This document shows positions 12,885-25,930 of a DNA stretch of 64,000 nucleotides, one piece after another. The position numbers and the translations under genes are program-made. Source of the stretch: Candidatus Kapaibacterium sp. (GTDB lineage: Bacteria > Bacteroidota > Ignavibacteria > Kapaibacteriales > UBA4661); contig JALONG010000019.1 in NCBI GenBank assembly GCA_025455065.1, positions 1-64,000 on the forward strand. The letters run 5' to 3'. The notes beneath the pieces were generated by a model. The model did no database searches, had not been told where the DNA came from, and saw only the letters and a program-made list of their open reading frames with translations. Within the stretch, counting starts at the first letter, position 1. Each line of letters opens with the position of its first letter.

Positions 12885-14894
12885 TTACGTTCTTCCAAAT
12901 CGGCGGTCAAACTCATCCAGCGAAATTTCAATCACCGTCGGGCGACCGTGCGGACACACGTAGGGCATTTCTGCTGCATAGAGGTCATCGGTTAATTGCC
13001 GCATTTCCTGAAACGTCAAAGCATCGCCCGCGCGAATAGCAGAGCGGCATCCGAAGGATGCTGCGAGATTATCACGCACCGACGTATGCCGAAGTTCATT
13101 GTATTCGCGGTACTGCTCCAACAGTTCGCGGAGCGCATCTTCTTCGTAGCCTGTGCGCACATCTGCCGGAATACCGCGTATTTCCGCGCCTTCCGGCGTA
13201 AGGGCAATGTCAAAGCCTAATGTGTATAAATCCGGCAAAAGTTCTCTAGTCAAAGCCGCATCACCGCTTGTCAGCTCAATGTGAACGGGAAAAAGCAGTT
13301 CTTGACCATACTTAAACCCTTCGTTCATTGCCTTTAATGCCCGCTCATACAAAATACGCTCGTGTGCGGCGTGTTGGTCTATCACCGCAAGACCGCTTGC
13401 TGTCGGCATGATGATATATTTTTTGTGCAGTTGCCAGAAAAATTTCCCCGCGAAACTGCGTCCCTGTGCGCTTTGGTCGAATGTACTGTTTGAGGGAGTT
13501 TCGCGCAATACCTCAGAAGCAACATTGGATGCGTCTTGTGGGGCTTGTGCAGATTGGAAGGCGCTTCCCTGAAATGCACTGCTCTGAAAAGCACTTGCTT
13601 GGCGGTTTTCGGGTGAAAATCGCCGTTCTTTGCCAAAAATTTGCTCATAAGCGCTCATCTCGCGCCCCGTCATTCGGCGCTCTGTGGGCGGCGTGTAGCG
13701 TGGTTCTGCTTCGCGCCTTGTGCCGGAAGGATTGGAAAAGATTTCTCCCGTTTCGCGGTTCACCAAGACCGATTCGCCCCGTCCGGACGGACTTTGCGGC
13801 GCAAGCGTCATACGCTCCATATTGCCGCCGAACTCCTGAAATCCTTCATTGCCGCCGCGGAACTGTGCGCTTGGCGTTAAATTGTGCTGCGCCAGTGTTT
13901 CTGCGACTGCGCGGCGAATGGCAGTGTACATCGTGCGGTCATCGTCGAATTTCACTTCGTGTTTCTGCGGGTGAATGTTCACATCAACCCGCTCCGGGTC
14001 TAGCGTCAAAGCCAGCACAAAGGGTGGATAGCTGGATTGGTCAATGAGGTGTTCGTAAGCGCTCATCACGGCGTGGCTCAGTTGGCGGCTTGCAATCACA
14101 CGCCCGTTCATCGTGAAAAACTGCTCTGCTTTGGTGCGTTTGGCAAAATGCGGCTGACCGATATACCCCGCAACATGAATATCTGAGCCGTTTGCAAGGC
14201 GCTCCGAAAAATCAACCCGCATCAGCGTTTCAGCAAACCGCTTGCCCAACGCATCCAAAATGCGCTGGTAGGGCGTTGTTGCGGGAAGGTCGTAATGGAG
14301 ATTGTCGTCGTCGTAAAACACAAAGCGCACATCGGGGCGAGAAAGCGCAAATTTGGTCATCGTGTCGGCAATATGACGAAACTCCGTGAGGTCAGAACGC
14401 AAGAATTTACGCCGTGCCGGAACGTTGTAAAAAAGATTCCGCACGAAAATTTGTGTTCCCGTTTCCATTGCCACAGGTTCGATAGTAGGCTTTTGAAGCG
14501 GCTCTGCGACAAGTTTCCAGCCATGTTCATCGTTTTTTCGGCGGGTGCGAATTTCCACCTGAGCAACAGAACAAATCGAAGCCAACGCCTCACCGCGAAA
14601 CCCCAGCGTCATAATGTGCGCTAAATCCTCCGCAGTCTTGATTTTGCTTGTTGCGTGGCGCTTTGGGGCAAGTTCGAGGTCGGCACGGCTCATGCCTTTA
14701 CCGTTATCAATGACGTGCAAAAGCTGTTTCCCCGCACCGCGCACAATCACGACAATTTCCGTCGCACCCGCATCAAGACTGTTTTCAACGAGTTCTTTGA
14801 TGACGGATTCGGGGCGCTGAACAACTTCTCCGGCAGCAATTTGATTGGCGATGAAATCCGGTAAAATCTGGATTTCGGTGTCGGTGAGATTCAT
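12885..14894 (-). CDS. mutL: DNA mismatch repair protein MutL (endonuclease type)
   Basis: A 669-aa GHKL ATPase. It has the N-terminal motifs ELVENSLDAGAT, DNGKGM and GFRGEALAS, and a C-terminal domain with the endonuclease motif DQHAAHERILYE (metal-binding DQHA-x2-E-x4-E), followed by GCRSAIRAGD and CPHGRP and ending in FGR. These mark the MutL group that nicks DNA itself in species lacking MutH. A variable linker (about residues 330-470) is rich in Ser, Gln and repeated FQSSAF-like units. ATG 14894 starts right before the conserved domain; the longer frame from 14945 would overlap the preceding gene. Only 13 nt separate it from the PIN gene, so mutL may be co-transcribed with the ATPase/PIN pair. 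Confidence 0.95.
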   Translation of the reverse strand: MNLTDTEIQILPDFIANQIAAGEVVQRPESVIKELVENSLDAGATEIVVIVRGAGKQLLHVIDNGKGMSRADLELAPKRHATSKIKTAEDLAHIMTLGFRGEALASICSVAQVEIRTRRKNDEHGWKLVAEPLQKPTIEPVAMETGTQIFVRNLFYNVPARRKFLRSDLTEFRHIADTMTKFALSRPDVRFVFYDDDNLHYDLPATTPYQRILDALGKRFAETLMRVDFSERLANGSDIHVAGYIGQPHFAKRTKAEQFFTMNGRVIASRQLSHAVMSAYEHLIDQSSYPPFVLALTLDPERVDVNIHPQKHEVKFDDDRTMYTAIRRAVAETLAQHNLTPSAQFRGGNEGFQEFGGNMERMTLAPQSPSGRGESVLVNRETGEIFSNPSGTRREAEPRYTPPTERRMTGREMSAYEQIFGKERRFSPENRQASAFQSSAFQGSAFQSAQAPQDASNVASEVLRETPSNSTFDQSAQGRSFAGKFFWQLHKKYIIMPTASGLAVIDQHAAHERILYERALKAMNEGFKYGQELLFPVHIELTSGDAALTRELLPDLYTLGFDIALTPEGAEIRGIPADVRTGYEEDALRELLEQYREYNELRHTSVRDNLAASFGCRSAIRAGDALTFQEMRQLTDDLYAAEMPYVCPHGRPTVIEISLDEFDRRFGRT

Positions 14895-14907: not shown

Positions 14908-15390
14908 TTATGCGGAATAGGGAAGGTCTTGCGGTCGTTTGACAACTGTTACCGTGAATCCGGGAAAATTCTCCAAATCTTGTGTCAAACCCTTGTCGAA
15001 TGTCAATGCGAATCGGCGATGCGACAAGAGAACAACAGGAATGTGGTCTCTGTCCTCATTGTTTGAGAGCATCTTCTTTTCGACTTGTTTGGTGAAATGT
15101 TCTTGCTTGAACTGCTTGATTTGGTCGTTGGAGATTTTCTTGAGCCTTTTCTCCCGAAGTAAGGTGTTGATTAACGCGGCAATGTTGGTAGCGGATGTGG
15201 CATGAAGAGAGGAGCGATGATACTCGGCAAGCAATTTTTGTGAAACAACAAGACACGATTTTTGCTCATCGTCAGGATGATTTTCCATGAGCCATTTGAG
15301 CAGCTTTTTATACTCCGGGTCAAGCGGATTGGCAAAGTTTTTTGCGATGTTATTGTCAATGAAAATATCCTTTTTTAGCTCATTTGCCAT
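14908..15390 (-). CDS. PIN-domain-like nuclease, partner of the AAA/DUF3696 ATPase
   Basis: A 160-aa protein that fits a PIN nuclease by its motif order: DIFIDNNI with D12, LLAEY with E56, an acidic NEDRD cluster (D113/D115) before a hydrophobic helix, and ALTFDKGLTQDL with D132 and D138. PIN domains use three or four such acidic residues to bind Mg2+ and cut RNA, as in VapC toxins. The helical insert at about 60-110 is Lys/Gln rich. It starts 14 nt after the ATPase gene ends, so the two are almost certainly co-expressed. The function as effector nuclease of a defence or stress system is inference; a classical VapB antitoxin is absent. Confidence 0.6.
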   Translation of the reverse strand: MANELKKDIFIDNNIAKNFANPLDPEYKKLLKWLMENHPDDEQKSCLVVSQKLLAEYHRSSLHATSATNIAALINTLLREKRLKKISNDQIKQFKQEHFTKQVEKKMLSNNEDRDHIPVVLLSHRRFALTFDKGLTQDLENFPGFTVTVVKRPQDLPYSA

Positions 15391-15404
15391 AGCTTGAACG
15401 GGCG

Positions 15405-16721
15405 TTATTCCGCATGGAGCGCTATTTCCATAACGTCCATTTGGTACGTGGTAAAAAAGTCTTCGGGAGCGCCTAGAATCTCGCCGCTTTTGGTGAAAGT
15501 AATTTTGTGAACATCGGTATCGAAGGGGTCGTGTTTGGCTTGATTGAGGTAATACACAGCAATATCTTCGGGCTGCAATTCGCCTTTGACAATCCCCAAA
15601 CGCAGCCTGTTTAAGCAGTATTCGCTGTGCGTTTCAATCACATAATTTTTTTCTGTGCGCTCTACCTGCTTTATCAAAAATTCCCCAAAACGCGACTGAA
15701 TATCAGGGTGCAGGTGAATTTCCGGTTGCGCTACAAAAAGTGTGGAATCATTCGGCAACTGCAAATCCGCAACCAAAATCGGCAAAAACTGACTTACACC
15801 AAATCCCACATCCGCAAGCGATGTAAATACGCCATTCTCTTTACTTTGCACCGTGATTTCGTAGCGCCCGCCGTACATACGCGAAGCCTTAATCCCTGTC
15901 AGCAAGTCTAACTCTTTCATCATGCTTAATAACGTCTCAAACTGCGGTGCTTTCTTGGTTTCCCACGCAATGATTTGGTCGAGATAATTTTCGCCAAAAC
16001 GTTCTACTTTCAGCTCGTTTTTCGTTGTTTCCAGATAGGTGCGTTCAGGGTGGAGGCGGAAGGAGCTGATGAAATTAATCCGATTGTCAAAATCGCTTAC
16101 AGTCATACGAGGATATCCTCTTAGAAATCGTACTAATATATTTAGGTCATTATCTTCTGACCAGTGTTGCCTTTTAAGGGTATCAATACTCATTATCTTA
16201 AAACCCTGAGAAGGCGCTTTACCTAAGAGTTCCTCTATAAGAGCTTCAAATGGGTGAGAAATACTCGGAAATTTATTAGGGTTAAACTGAGAACTTAAGA
16301 TATATCCTTTTTCGGTATCTTTGGTCACAGAAACTCTAAAAAAATCTCCTGCTATCACAATCTCATCTAAGGTTGGTAAACCTGTCACTTCGCTTTCTAT
16401 CCATGTTGATTCTATTTGCATTTCCGAAAATTTCTTAAACATCACCAATCTTTTGGATGTAAAGGTAAATGCTATTTTCACCCGTGCATCTTTCCTCCTC
16501 TGAAACGCAATATCCTGAAAATCCCCCATATTCACGTACTTTCCGTTTGTCGAGAACTCCAGAGGAAATTCACCAGATTGAATAGCGCCAAGAATACTGT
16601 ACATGAGAGAACTTTTACCACTGCTGTTCGCACCGGTAAGTATCGTTAAACGCCCCAAATCAAGGTCTTGGCGCTGTCCGAAACATTTGAAATTTTCTAT
16701 GGTAAGATTGGTAAGCCGCAT
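15405..16721 (-). CDS. AAA family ATPase with DUF3696 domain
   Basis: A 438-aa SMC/ABC-like ATPase of the AAA_15/AAA_21 type. Walker A is GANSSGKS (residues 30-37), the signature-like loop is GFGVSQFLPIL, Walker B is QPEIHLHP (about 332-339; Gln replaces the usual Glu at its first position) and the switch His lies in ETHSEYCLNR (about 365). The C-terminal 45 residues (ITFTKSGEILGAPEDFFTTY) match DUF3696. Related ATPases drive defence systems such as those pairing an ABC-type ATPase with a nuclease. Here the partner is the PIN-like protein directly downstream. The gene follows panB in the same direction, with no clear promoter visible in the 18-nt gap. Confidence 0.82.
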   Translation of the reverse strand: MRLTNLTIENFKCFGQRQDLDLGRLTILTGANSSGKSSLMYSILGAIQSGEFPLEFSTNGKYVNMGDFQDIAFQRRKDARVKIAFTFTSKRLVMFKKFSEMQIESTWIESEVTGLPTLDEIVIAGDFFRVSVTKDTEKGYILSSQFNPNKFPSISHPFEALIEELLGKAPSQGFKIMSIDTLKRQHWSEDNDLNILVRFLRGYPRMTVSDFDNRINFISSFRLHPERTYLETTKNELKVERFGENYLDQIIAWETKKAPQFETLLSMMKELDLLTGIKASRMYGGRYEITVQSKENGVFTSLADVGFGVSQFLPILVADLQLPNDSTLFVAQPEIHLHPDIQSRFGEFLIKQVERTEKNYVIETHSEYCLNRLRLGIVKGELQPEDIAVYYLNQAKHDPFDTDVHKITFTKSGEILGAPEDFFTTYQMDVMEIALHAE

Positions 16722-16739: not shown

Positions 16740-17645
16740 TTAATAACTCTCCTCTTCCGACGGAAACGTCGCGCCGCGGACATCGTTGATATACTGCCCG
16801 ACCGCCTCCAACATTCGTTCCCGCATGACATCGTAGCGGCGCACAAAGCGCGGTTGGAAGTCATTAGTGATGCCGAGCATATCGGTATAAACCAAAATCT
16901 GCCCGTCACAGTGAACACCCGCACCAATGCCAATCGTAGGAATGGTCAGGGCTGCGGTGATTTGCCGTGCGAGTTCGGCGGGGATTTTTTCCAAGACAAT
17001 CGCAAAGCAGCCTGCACGCTCTAAATCTCTTGCGTCGCGTAAAATCTGCTCTGCTTCCTTTTTGTCCGTGCCGCGTGTGCGGTATGAGCCGAATTGGTGA
17101 ATACTTTGCGGTGTTAATCCCAAATGCCCCATCACCGGAATCCCGGAATCGCTGATGTGTGCAACGATTTCCAAAACACGCCGTCCGCCCTCCAGCTTTA
17201 CAGCGCTTGCTCCGGCTTCTTTCATCAATCGCCCCGCATTGCGGAAGGCTTCTTCGGGTGAGATTTGATACGACATAAACGGCATATCCGCCACAACCAT
17301 TGCACGGCTCACACCCCGCATTACTGCTTTGGTGTGGTAAATTATTTCGTCGAGCGTTACAGGAATTGTGGTTTCATGCCCTTGCACAACATTCCCGACG
17401 GAATCACCGACTAAAAGCAGGTCAATTCCTGCTTCATCGAAGATTTGCGCCATTGTCGCATCGTATGCTGTTAGGCAAGAAAAGCGTTCTCCGCGCTTTT
17501 TCCGTTCCAAAAGCGTTTGGCGGGTAACGTGTTTGGTGCGACGGAGTGCTGGCGCTCCTCCGTAGAGCGTGGTATCGGATTCTGCTTTTGGGGGCGGAGC
17601 CATTGCGGAAGGAAGTGGCGTAACGGGTTTGATAGGTTCGTTCAT
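16740..17645 (-). CDS. panB: 3-methyl-2-oxobutanoate hydroxymethyltransferase
   Basis: This enzyme transfers a hydroxymethyl group from 5,10-methylene-THF to ketoisovalerate, the first step of pantothenate synthesis. The 301-aa protein has [38 protein letters not shown] (Mg2+ site), [35 protein letters not shown] and [20 protein letters not shown], all standard PanB blocks. ATG 17645 is chosen; it leaves a roughly 45-residue Pro-rich extension before the TIM barrel, and the still longer frame to 17804 would cover the next gene. panC and panD are not nearby. Confidence 0.95.
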
Positions 17646-17667
17646 AATGGCATTAAACGGAATAACG

Positions 17668-17946
17668 TTAGTTGTCAAGGCGATACACTTGCAAATCTCC
17701 ACTGAGTTCAACCAGCGTGTCGCCGACAAAAAAGAAAATTTTATTGGTGTACTCGAAGCGATTGACAATGCCGAAAAACTCCCATTTTCCGATAACTTGA
17801 CCACCGGAATACTGAATAACGCGGTAGCGTCCCTGCGAAAACTTGGTTATATCGCGGCGGAATTCCTGCAAACCAAGCGCACTGCAACTGCTTAATGTCC
17901 AAAGCAAAGATACGCCAAAGATAGCGCTCAAAAGAAGTTTTTTCAT
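17668..17946 (-). CDS. Small putative lipoprotein
   Basis: A 92-aa protein with a lipoprotein signal peptide: MKKLLL, a hydrophobic core and the lipobox LSSC at about 18-21, so it should be lipidated at that Cys. The mature part (about 70 aa) has beta-like alternating segments ([21 protein letters not shown]) and no family that I recognise. It lies 22 nt upstream of panB on the same strand and may share its transcript. No functional link to pantothenate synthesis is implied. Confidence 0.7.
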
Positions 17947-19954: not shown

Positions 19955-20458
19955 TTATGTGGTCACGGTCATCAATGGTTTTTGTGGTCTGCCTGCTTTC
20001 CGTTCTGCTAAACGATTCAAATCAGAAGCCCGAATAAGATACTGTTTACCGAAGCGCCGAGCAGGAATGCGCCCTTGCTGCACAAGCACCGTCAAGCGCT
20101 GACGAGAGATATTCATACGTTTTGCAGCTTCGGTGATAGACAATTCCACATTGGAACTAACACTGAGAGATGAGCGCGGGTCATCTTCGGGATGCTGCGC
20201 CCAGTATTCATGCGCAAAAGCACTGGAATCGGGCTTTCCTGCCAAAAGCGCTTCAATGCTAATGTCTTCATCCAATTCTTCCCACGAAACGCTACCGCCC
20301 CATATCCGGCAATTTTTGCGTTCTTGAGGCGTTCCCATAAGCAAGCGGGGAAACCACGAATACGGCACAGAAAGCGTTCTGCCGTCTTTGAGCGCAAGCG
20401 TAAATGCGGTTTTGCCAAAGGATATACTCTGCGCTTCCGGTTCAATAATGAGGTTCAT
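19955..20458 (-). CDS. DUF2442 protein fused to an excisionase-type HTH
   Basis: A 167-aa protein. Residues 1-65 match DUF2442 (FTLALKDGRTLSVPYSWFPRLL, CRIWGGSVSWEELDEDISIEALL). Residues about 103-155 are a MerR/excisionase-like helix-turn-helix (SITEAAKRMNISRQRLTVLVQQGRIPARRFGKQYLIRASDL). DUF2442 proteins often follow a DUF4160 gene, as here, where ATG and TGA overlap by 4 nt. Pairs like this have been proposed as toxin-antitoxin modules; the HTH would make this partner the DNA-binding, autoregulating component. That role is inference. Confidence 0.8.
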   Translation of the reverse strand: MNLIIEPEAQSISFGKTAFTLALKDGRTLSVPYSWFPRLLMGTPQERKNCRIWGGSVSWEELDEDISIEALLAGKPDSSAFAHEYWAQHPEDDPRSSLSVSSNVELSITEAAKRMNISRQRLTVLVQQGRIPARRFGKQYLIRASDLNRLAERKAGRPQKPLMTVTT

Positions 20459-20721
20459 AGCGTTGGAGAAATCGGTGGTGTGGGTTTACAAAAGGCTTCC
20501 CATTCTGCTTGTATAACTGATTCATGCTCCGCAATAATGCGAAGAATTTCTGTCAGTTCATGCCCGCGAAAGCCTTTGTTAAAGGCGATTTCTTGTGTTG
20601 TAACCCAAATTTTTGCTTCTTTACCTTGTGCTTTGACATGAACATGAATTGGTTCGCGGCAATCTGTGGAATAGAATGAAAAGTGATACTGCGATGAAGG
20701 AAGTCCTTTAATTTTCGCCAT
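20455..20721 (-). CDS. DUF4160 domain protein
   Basis: An 88-aa protein matching DUF4160: the segment FSFYSTDCREPIHVHVKAQGKEAKIWV with the conserved EPxHVHV core, then FRGHELTEILRIIAEHESVIQAEWEAF, in which the helix and the terminal W-x-x-F are typical. The biochemical activity of the family is not established. It is translationally coupled to the DUF2442-HTH gene (4-nt overlap) and lies 60 nt downstream of purM on the same strand. Confidence 0.82.
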   Translation of the reverse strand: MAKIKGLPSSQYHFSFYSTDCREPIHVHVKAQGKEAKIWVTTQEIAFNKGFRGHELTEILRIIAEHESVIQAEWEAFCKPTPPISPTL

Positions 20722-24015: not shown

Positions 24016-25236
24016 TTACTGATTGATTTGTAGCGTTTTTTGTTGCGTCCAATTCTGCACAACAACATCAAACGAATCTACGATGAGCAGATTGTCACGT
24101 GAACGGGCAATGGTGTCGGTGGCAAAAAGTGCTGAGTTTTCGGTCATTGTGCGAACAAGGATGAGATATTTACAGTGTCTTGCTTGGGTTGCGCCAAGAA
24201 GCCTTTGTGCCGCTTCATCCAAGGTTTCATGAGGCTTTTGAATGCGTATGGCAATGGGCGATTCATCAATGTACATCTTCAAAAAACCGTCAATACCGTT
24301 ATTGCGCTCAACAGGAACAGCATCAAAGGCTTCTAAAATACGACGTTCTATGGGAGATTTTACAAAAAATGATGCAGTGCCATCTTCAAGAACAGCAGAA
24401 CGTGATTTTATCGGTATTTCAAGGCGCTGCTCCGACAAACGCACTGCCTCTTGCGCAATATCAATGCCGATTGATGCTCGATTATTCAGTTGCGCCGCAA
24501 CCAGCATCGAACCGCTTCCACAAAAAGGGTCAAGCACCGTCGCGCCTTCATTACTTGCAATCGCAAGTATTCGCTCCATCAGTGCAATAGGTTTCTGTGT
24601 CGGATAACCAACACGCTCGCGGGCTTTGGGATTCAAAAAAGGAATATGCCAAACATCGGACAGAGGAACACCTTTCTTGGCATCTGCTAAAACAACATTC
24701 CCCTCTACATCACGCTTATATGCTGCTTTTCCGTGTTCATTACGGGAGCGTGATTGCAAAATTTGGTCAATGTTGGTTGTGGGCGAATACTCTCCATACA
24801 GCGTGTTGAAGAGAAAATCTGCGGTTTTACTATAAAACAGTATGGTTTGATGCGCTGAGAGCAAGCCTTTTTTGTTATTCGACCAGCGTTTGTATGACCA
24901 AATTATTTCGCTTTGAAAGTATTCCGCACCAAAAACTTCGTCCAAAAGGAGGCGTAGATGATGTGACGCTGTCGTATCACAATGCAGAAAAATACTGCCT
25001 TCTCGCTTCAATACACGATGTGATTCGTGCAAAACCTCGCGCATACAATCACGATATTCGTCTAACGATGCCCACGTGTCTTGGAAGCTATATTCTGTGC
25101 TGTTGTCGCGTGATTTTAAGCTGTGCTGCTTCTGTGTAAAAAAAGGCGGGTCAAGATAGACCACATCAATGCTTTCAGGCTTGAGCGTTGGGATAATTTT
25201 TCGGCAATCGCCGTGATATACAGGTGTTGCGGTCAT
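24016..25236 (-). CDS. DNA methyltransferase of a type II R-M system
   Basis: A 406-aa amino-methyltransferase. Motif IV DPPF lies early (about residues 30-33) and motif I (LDPFCGSGSM) follows late, the permuted order of the beta class that makes N4-methylcytosine or N6-methyladenine. The segment VGYPTQKPIALMERIL is typical of that class. The C-terminal 150 aa form an extra domain, probably for target recognition. It lies directly downstream of an ApaLI-like endonuclease gene (58-nt gap), so it should protect the same site. The exact base modified is not readable from sequence. Confidence 0.9.
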   Translation of the reverse strand: MTATPVYHGDCRKIIPTLKPESIDVVYLDPPFFTQKQHSLKSRDNSTEYSFQDTWASLDEYRDCMREVLHESHRVLKREGSIFLHCDTTASHHLRLLLDEVFGAEYFQSEIIWSYKRWSNNKKGLLSAHQTILFYSKTADFLFNTLYGEYSPTTNIDQILQSRSRNEHGKAAYKRDVEGNVVLADAKKGVPLSDVWHIPFLNPKARERVGYPTQKPIALMERILAIASNEGATVLDPFCGSGSMLVAAQLNNRASIGIDIAQEAVRLSEQRLEIPIKSRSAVLEDGTASFFVKSPIERRILEAFDAVPVERNNGIDGFLKMYIDESPIAIRIQKPHETLDEAAQRLLGATQARHCKYLILVRTMTENSALFATDTIARSRDNLLIVDSFDVVVQNWTQQKTLQINQ

Positions 25237-25294
25237 TGCTCAATGGTTGGTGAAAGTGTACCGTTCTTTTTCGCGGAATTGCCCGTAGAACTGC

Positions 25295-25930
25295 CTACAC
25301 ACGAGTATTGGTGAGGTTTTCGAGTATTGCTTTTAAGTCAATCGAAGTTTTTTGTGCAAGATATTTCCAAGCCTCGTCACCCGCATAATACTCACCGCCG
25401 ATGCCGAGATACAGTGTTTTCAATGTTTTTTGTACACGCAATGCCTGTTCGCGGTTAGGCATGAAAAACATCAAACGTATAGGAATCAAGCCGTAATCTC
25501 GAATTGCATTGATGCGAGTATGCTCTTTGGTAATGTGGTCACCGTCCGTAGTGGCATCGCGCCACTTGATTTCAAGAGCTTTTTGACCAATTACACAATC
25601 TATTTCAAATTCTTTGGGGCGTAAACCTTGTGAATTAGGAATGCGCATTGATGCTGCCTCCGGAAAACGCGCTTGAAAGCAGCATAAAACCGCACGTTCC
25701 AGAAATTTTCCTGCGTAATTGTAGAGAAAACGCCCTTTGTTTTGGTAGAGGTCTATCATTTTGCCTTCTTCTACCGAAACACCAAGCACAGCGTATAAGA
25801 GATAATGAGCCGTGTTGTCATTTTCCATCTCTTGGATTCGCTCTTCGGTACGTCGCGCCAATTCTTGCGCATAGTGTTGAGCAAGTTCCTGTATTTGTGG
25901 TTGGACTGCGAGGTGAAAGGAAGAAGGCAT
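25295..25930 (-). CDS. ApaLI-like type II restriction endonuclease
   Basis: A 211-aa protein whose central block, FEIDCVIGQKALEIKWRDATTDGDHITKEHTR in sense, carries the PD-(D/E)XK pattern: D of FEID, then E-I-K of ALEIKWRD. The sequence DATTDGDHITKEHTR and the following PIRLMFFMPNREQALRVQ and GEYYAGDEAWKYL fit the RE_ApaLI family as I remember it. ApaLI cuts GTGCAC; shared specificity is likely but unproven. It sits upstream of the methyltransferase, with the DUF29-like gene 44 nt before it. Confidence 0.75.
   Translation of the reverse strand: MPSSFHLAVQPQIQELAQHYAQELARRTEERIQEMENDNTAHYLLYAVLGVSVEEGKMIDLYQNKGRFLYNYAGKFLERAVLCCFQARFPEAASMRIPNSQGLRPKEFEIDCVIGQKALEIKWRDATTDGDHITKEHTRINAIRDYGLIPIRLMFFMPNREQALRVQKTLKTLYLGIGGEYYAGDEAWKYLAQKTSIDLKAILENLTNTRV

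Follow-up and report, generated by a model that had tools for sequence, protein, structure and literature searches.

The locus and its genomic setting

Two adjacent genes between panB and mutL in a Candidatus Kapaibacterium contig (JALONG010000019.1) raised the question of whether they serve mutL or form a nuclease-effector system triggered by an ATPase, as an earlier note had proposed. The window, the whole stretch of DNA analyzed, comprises the first 64,000 nt of this contig. The open reading frames, coordinates, motifs and short intergenic spacings described previously were all found again. The gap between the ATPase and PIN ORFs is 14 nt, the panB ORF lies 18 nt upstream of the ATPase ORF, and the PIN stop codon is followed after 13 nt by the ATG of the co-directional mutL gene (Table 1).

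Table 1. Coordinates of the gene pair, its motifs and its flanks in the window, and of a related Cas13b-ATPase locus.
Feature	Position	Strand	Details
ABC-type ATPase with DUF3696 tail	15405..16721	(-)	438 aa, ATG start; gene 1 of the pair
Walker A GANSSGKS	16611..16634	(-)	Residues 30-37; invariant across the clade (alignment)
QPEIHLHP at Walker B place	15705..15728	(-)	Residues 332-339; preceded by Ala, not the usual acid
DUF3696 domain	15429..15581	(-)	Residues 381-431, PF12476
PIN-fold nuclease, predicted	14908..15390	(-)	160 aa, ATG start; gene 2 of the pair
panB flank (ketopantoate hydroxymethyltransferase)	16740..17804	(-)	Pfam PF02548 7e-117; outside the system
mutL flank	12885..14894	(-)	Pfam MutL domains; outside the system
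Cas13b-ATPase locus	L012:3561-8919 = L066:7944-13302		Contig JAOZMN010000047.1; Bacteroidales, metagenome

In G003, which belongs to the same genus, the row purM, SDR, panB and mutL is kept without the cassette, and 84 nt separate panB from mutL. The cassette was either inserted in the window genome or lost from this relative. We favor insertion because the pair is rare and because the GC content of its two genes (0.418 and 0.429) is lower than that of the flanking panB and mutL (0.52). When the junctions in the window were inspected, neither a target duplication nor a transposase was seen.

The window copy is surrounded by housekeeping genes, and the closest defense genes are 7 kb off. At that distance (~7 kb; 24016-25930, minus strand), an ApaLI-like restriction endonuclease and an N4/N6 DNA methylase form a type II restriction-modification pair. 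Adjoining purM (19955-20721, minus strand), a DUF4160 gene overlaps a gene for DUF2442 plus HTH, as in a toxin-antitoxin pair. This pair may be a second cassette inserted into the same gene row, since G003 has only ~54 nt at its place.

Predicted structure and conserved sites of the two proteins

Pfam matched the window ATPase to AAA_15 (3e-19) and, at its C-terminal end, to DUF3696 (24.4 bits, cut-off 22); no TOPRIM match was obtained. Beyond the motifs in Table 1, the protein has ETHSEY as its switch-His motif and a signature-like GFGVSQ, and its Walker B position reads AQPEIHLHP. The structure model (pLDDT 76.9, poor at residues 152-209) matched the heads of SMC, Rad50 and PtuA (VIA Z 18-21), and no coiled coil was seen in it. 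The best PADLOC profiles were NsnB, PDC-M55A, HEC-03B and AriA. The protein is thus an ABC ATPase that resembles SMC, Rad50 and PtuA, ends in DUF3696 and comes closest in profile and fold to the defense ATPases NsnB, HEC-03B, AriA and PtuA. Both lines of comparison place it with the ATPases that act as sensors in nuclease-effector systems.

A Gln-for-Glu Walker B variant had also been described. The Gln is present, but it is common in DUF3696 ATPases: EQPE is typical of most of those having other partners. Gln being a wider DUF3696 trait, the special point of the window clade lies one residue earlier, where all 12 full-length clade ATPases read carry Ala or Ser in place of the acid normal for Walker B (the next residue is Gln in 8 and Glu in 4). 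A thirteenth copy, truncated by its contig (L009), has Glu-Gln at this place. With the Walker B acid replaced, ATP turnover is possibly weak or absent.

The small protein gave nothing above the Pfam cut-off, and none of the PADLOC and Pfam models covers it; matches to GerD, ZorC and other Pfam and PADLOC entries were weak, differed between family members and were rejected as chance. Because its sequence profile matched no solved structure, fold comparison was used. The AlphaFold2 model built from a 12-sequence alignment (pLDDT 88.9, pTM 0.84) had VapC toxins as its top Foldseek matches, and VIA-align gave Z 8-10 against VapC, Nmd4, SMG6 and protein-only RNase P. D12, E56, D113 and D132 were invariant in 12/12 homologs and, judged by position and order, are the residues of the PIN site. 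D115, listed with them in the earlier note, dropped out, as position 115 varies between D, E and N. Together, the fold match and the complete set of four acids identify the protein as a PIN nuclease, bearing out the fold assigned before. The dN/dS values were 0.11 for the PIN gene and 0.17 for the ATPase gene, with usable values from two comparisons only.

Conservation and distribution of the pair

With the PIN protein as the only query, a scan of ~85,000 species genomes found 12 loci, from Bacteroidota wherever the record title names the organism, with full-length matches 46-56% identical; the copies include those of Arcicella rosea and Flectobacillus longus (L002, L003). In each of the 12, the PIN gene is immediately preceded, in the same orientation, by the ATPase gene (34-50% identity), so the pair is kept across genomes; its presence in the same order in 12 other genomes means that it is not a chance association. 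Spacing ranged from -4 to +87 nt (n = 11 pairs measured), with stop-start overlap in 4, and the divergences of the two proteins were correlated (Mantel r 0.88, p 0.0001).

The distribution of the cassette is patchy and the pair is rare. In 61 genomes of its order, and again in 395 genomes of the phylum, the window's own copy was the sole convincing PIN match, just as Arcicella's own was the only one in 394 genomes drawn around Arcicella. No PIN gene was found in the other genomes searched of the genus and family, and no copy of the protein in the phages, plasmids and viral contigs searched. One weak, partial match in another genome of the phylum (E 9e-4), listed as G348 and as G742 and taken from size and coordinates to be one genome, was left uncounted.

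The gene downstream of the pair is on the same strand in 9 of the 10 other loci with a readable one, and within ~75 nt in 8. The cassette thus tends to sit inside operons, and since these neighbors are mostly co-directional and close, it probably uses the transcription of the host operons. This suggests housekeeping operons as a place for such cassettes, one that searches limited to defense islands would not reach. No mutL gene was found in the vicinity of the pair at its other loci. The ATPase was retained with a truncated PIN gene at one locus (L013), and a PIN gene lacking its ATPase was found at none, as would be expected if the PIN protein were a harmful effector kept in check by the ATPase.

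Relation to known systems

The earlier note knew of no named system with exactly this pair. A similar pairing is in fact already listed as a candidate, PADLOC HEC-03 (hma-embedded candidate 3), which consists of the ATPase HEC-03B and the PIN-like HEC-03A. As in the window, a DUF3696 ATPase gene is followed directly by a gene for a PIN-like protein with acidic motifs in the same order. The window pair nevertheless belongs to a separate clade, and its PIN protein has no HEC-03A match. In a tree of 26 ATPases, the window, HEC-03 and Nsn types each formed one clade with 98-100% support; the window ATPase fell outside the HEC-03 clade, although the HEC-03B profile matched it at 5.6e-43 (third best). 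The HEC-03A profile matched 0/12 of the PIN homologs, whereas true HEC-03A partners score 2e-24, and a profile-to-profile comparison of the window-type PIN proteins with HEC-03A partners gave no match, although a remote kinship might escape it, as the two alignments are shallow. An RNA ligase gene was present in 7 of the 9 HEC-03-type loci read and absent from the window cassette. The HECs originate from a 2024 preprint; according to a later paper, several of them, of which it names HEC-06, had antiviral activity (PMC12988326).

In HEC-03-type loci (L035, L037, L038, L059, L068, L081, L084), the third gene usually belongs to an RNA ligase family and, as far as PADLOC matches show, lies outside the HEC-03 pair itself.

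Menshen comprises NsnA, NsnB and NsnC, and of all PADLOC profiles that of NsnB matched the window ATPase best (4.7e-61). The same profile also matches HEC-03 ATPases (4.5e-59), and the window ATPase lies in a separate clade. The DUF262 protein NsnA and NsnC are absent beside it, its flanks being panB and mutL, and no adjacent partners of these types were present in the ORFs read at the other copies of the pair. Judged in this way, the window pair belongs to neither Menshen nor HEC-03. It shares the plan of HEC-03 and is a further variant of the ATPase-plus-nuclease kind. It is uncatalogued in the libraries searched and adds a well-bounded clade to the DUF3696 ATPase systems.

PARIS (AriA, AriB), Septu, retron PtuAB, OLD and Gabija likewise combine an ABC ATPase of the OLD/SMC-head kind with a nuclease partner, and by analogy their logic is likely similar. 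The window pair differs from them in its DUF3696 tail and in having a PIN partner, not TOPRIM or HNH; the TOPRIM of OLD, Gabija and PARIS is absent from both window proteins. With VapBC it shares the VapC-like PIN fold and four conserved acidic residues. The small DNA-binding VapB gene is missing, the PIN gene being adjoined only by mutL and the gene for the 438-aa ABC ATPase.

Proposed function and alternatives

There is, in our estimate, an even chance that the two genes form a cassette gained by horizontal transfer, the DUF3696 ABC ATPase serving both as a sensor and as the keeper of the PIN ribonuclease encoded by the next gene. In favor of this reading are the conserved pairing and gene order, the correlated divergence and stop-start overlaps, the PIN fold with its invariant acids, the likeness of the ATPase to defense ATPases, the defense partners of related ATPases, the patchy distribution with an empty site in the same genus, and the loss pattern. 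In PARIS, the AriB tRNase stays sequestered by a hexamer of AriA as long as no phage protein has been sensed (PMC12409363). By analogy, the most likely arrangement is that the ATPase keeps the PIN protein inactive and switches it on when triggered. At rest, the PIN protein would be bound by the ATPase and kept harmless; the ATPase would sense an invader or its effect, and a change in the ATP-bound assembly would release or activate the PIN protein. The active nuclease would then cleave RNA (tRNA, rRNA or mRNA), stopping translation and blocking phage growth. Complex formation, sensing, the RNA substrate and the defensive purpose are parts of this scheme that we infer. The defense reading is weakened by the replaced Walker B acid, by the housekeeping surroundings and by the non-toxic roles in RNA processing that are also known for PIN domains. 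As a unit of two genes, the cassette is small enough for direct testing.

The pair could instead be an addiction module of the toxin-antitoxin kind, in which the ATPase neutralizes the PIN protein, the pair stabilizes itself in operons and any effect on phage is secondary. We hold this to be possible, though doubtful: the VapC-like fold, the small size of the two-gene unit, the many loci that represent insertion within housekeeping operons and the ATPase-only remnant, with no PIN-only counterpart, all agree with it, but an ATPase of 438 aa whose nucleotide-binding motifs are conserved would be an unusual antitoxin, and the nearest ATPase families come from defense systems. Cleavage of invader DNA, with the ATPase loading or positioning the PIN protein on it in the manner of Rad50-Mre11 or of Septu-like nucleases, is unlikely. 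The head of the ATPase is similar to those of Rad50, SMC and PtuA, the last of which has an HNH nuclease as partner; however, most structural matches of the PIN protein are RNA nucleases and the sister HEC-03 systems usually carry an RNA ligase, both of which make RNA the likelier substrate, and the ATPase model lacks a visible coiled coil.

A housekeeping role in RNA processing or repair tied to mutL is highly improbable. It would account for the co-directional genes 13 nt apart in the window, but not for the rarity of the pair or for the absence of the PIN gene from every other genome searched of the genus and family. A link to mutL, whose position next to the pair the earlier note had remarked on, was rejected: the empty panB-mutL site of G003 and the absence of mutL near the other copies speak against a functional connection, and the mutL neighbor is incidental, an adjacency of one genome.

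Other DUF3696 ATPase loci

The neighbors of DUF3696 ATPase genes were read on plasmids, in phages and in Bacteroidota. Several partner sets were found, including DUF262 with a third protein (NsnA and NsnC of Menshen in the one locus profiled), PIN-like proteins of the HEC-03A type, and others. Related ATPases adjoin nuclease or other defense partners, and PIN-like partners were met twice more beyond the window type; PIN nucleases are therefore recurrent partners of DUF3696 ATPases. At L088:817-2686, a DUF3696-type ATPase is followed by a 173-aa protein with no Pfam match and with the PIN-like motifs IIDTN, DEH and TQD, from which it is possibly a third family of PIN partners.

In one Bacteroidales locus (L012), a 1478-aa ORF joins Cas13b (its first 1080 residues, with two RX4H motifs, one at 110 and one at 1056) in frame to a C-terminal DUF3696 ATPase of the window clade. 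The PIN gene follows 3 nt later, and then five 36-nt CRISPR repeats. A stop may have been missed, as Cas13b and ATPase are joined within an A-rich run and the contig comes from a metagenome. The fusion was absent at every other Cas13b locus looked at, and two other Bacteroidota genomes with Cas13b had no ATPase-PIN pair nearby. It is quite unlikely, in our view, that ATPase-PIN is an exchangeable RNA-cleaving effector module wired to different sensors, among them a type VI-B CRISPR effector; if it were, recognition of target RNA by Cas13b at this locus could switch on a second nuclease.

At L013, the pair lies between atpH and atpA, and the PIN protein is cut off after about residue 53. The gene order there (L013:172-10844) is atpF, a HEPN/MNT pair, atpH, the ATPase with the truncated PIN gene, atpA, an AAA_21 gene with a DUF4276-like gene, atpG and AlbA_2, with a GmrSD_N gene upstream. 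Toxin-like or defense-like cassettes thus lie between consecutive ATP synthase genes.
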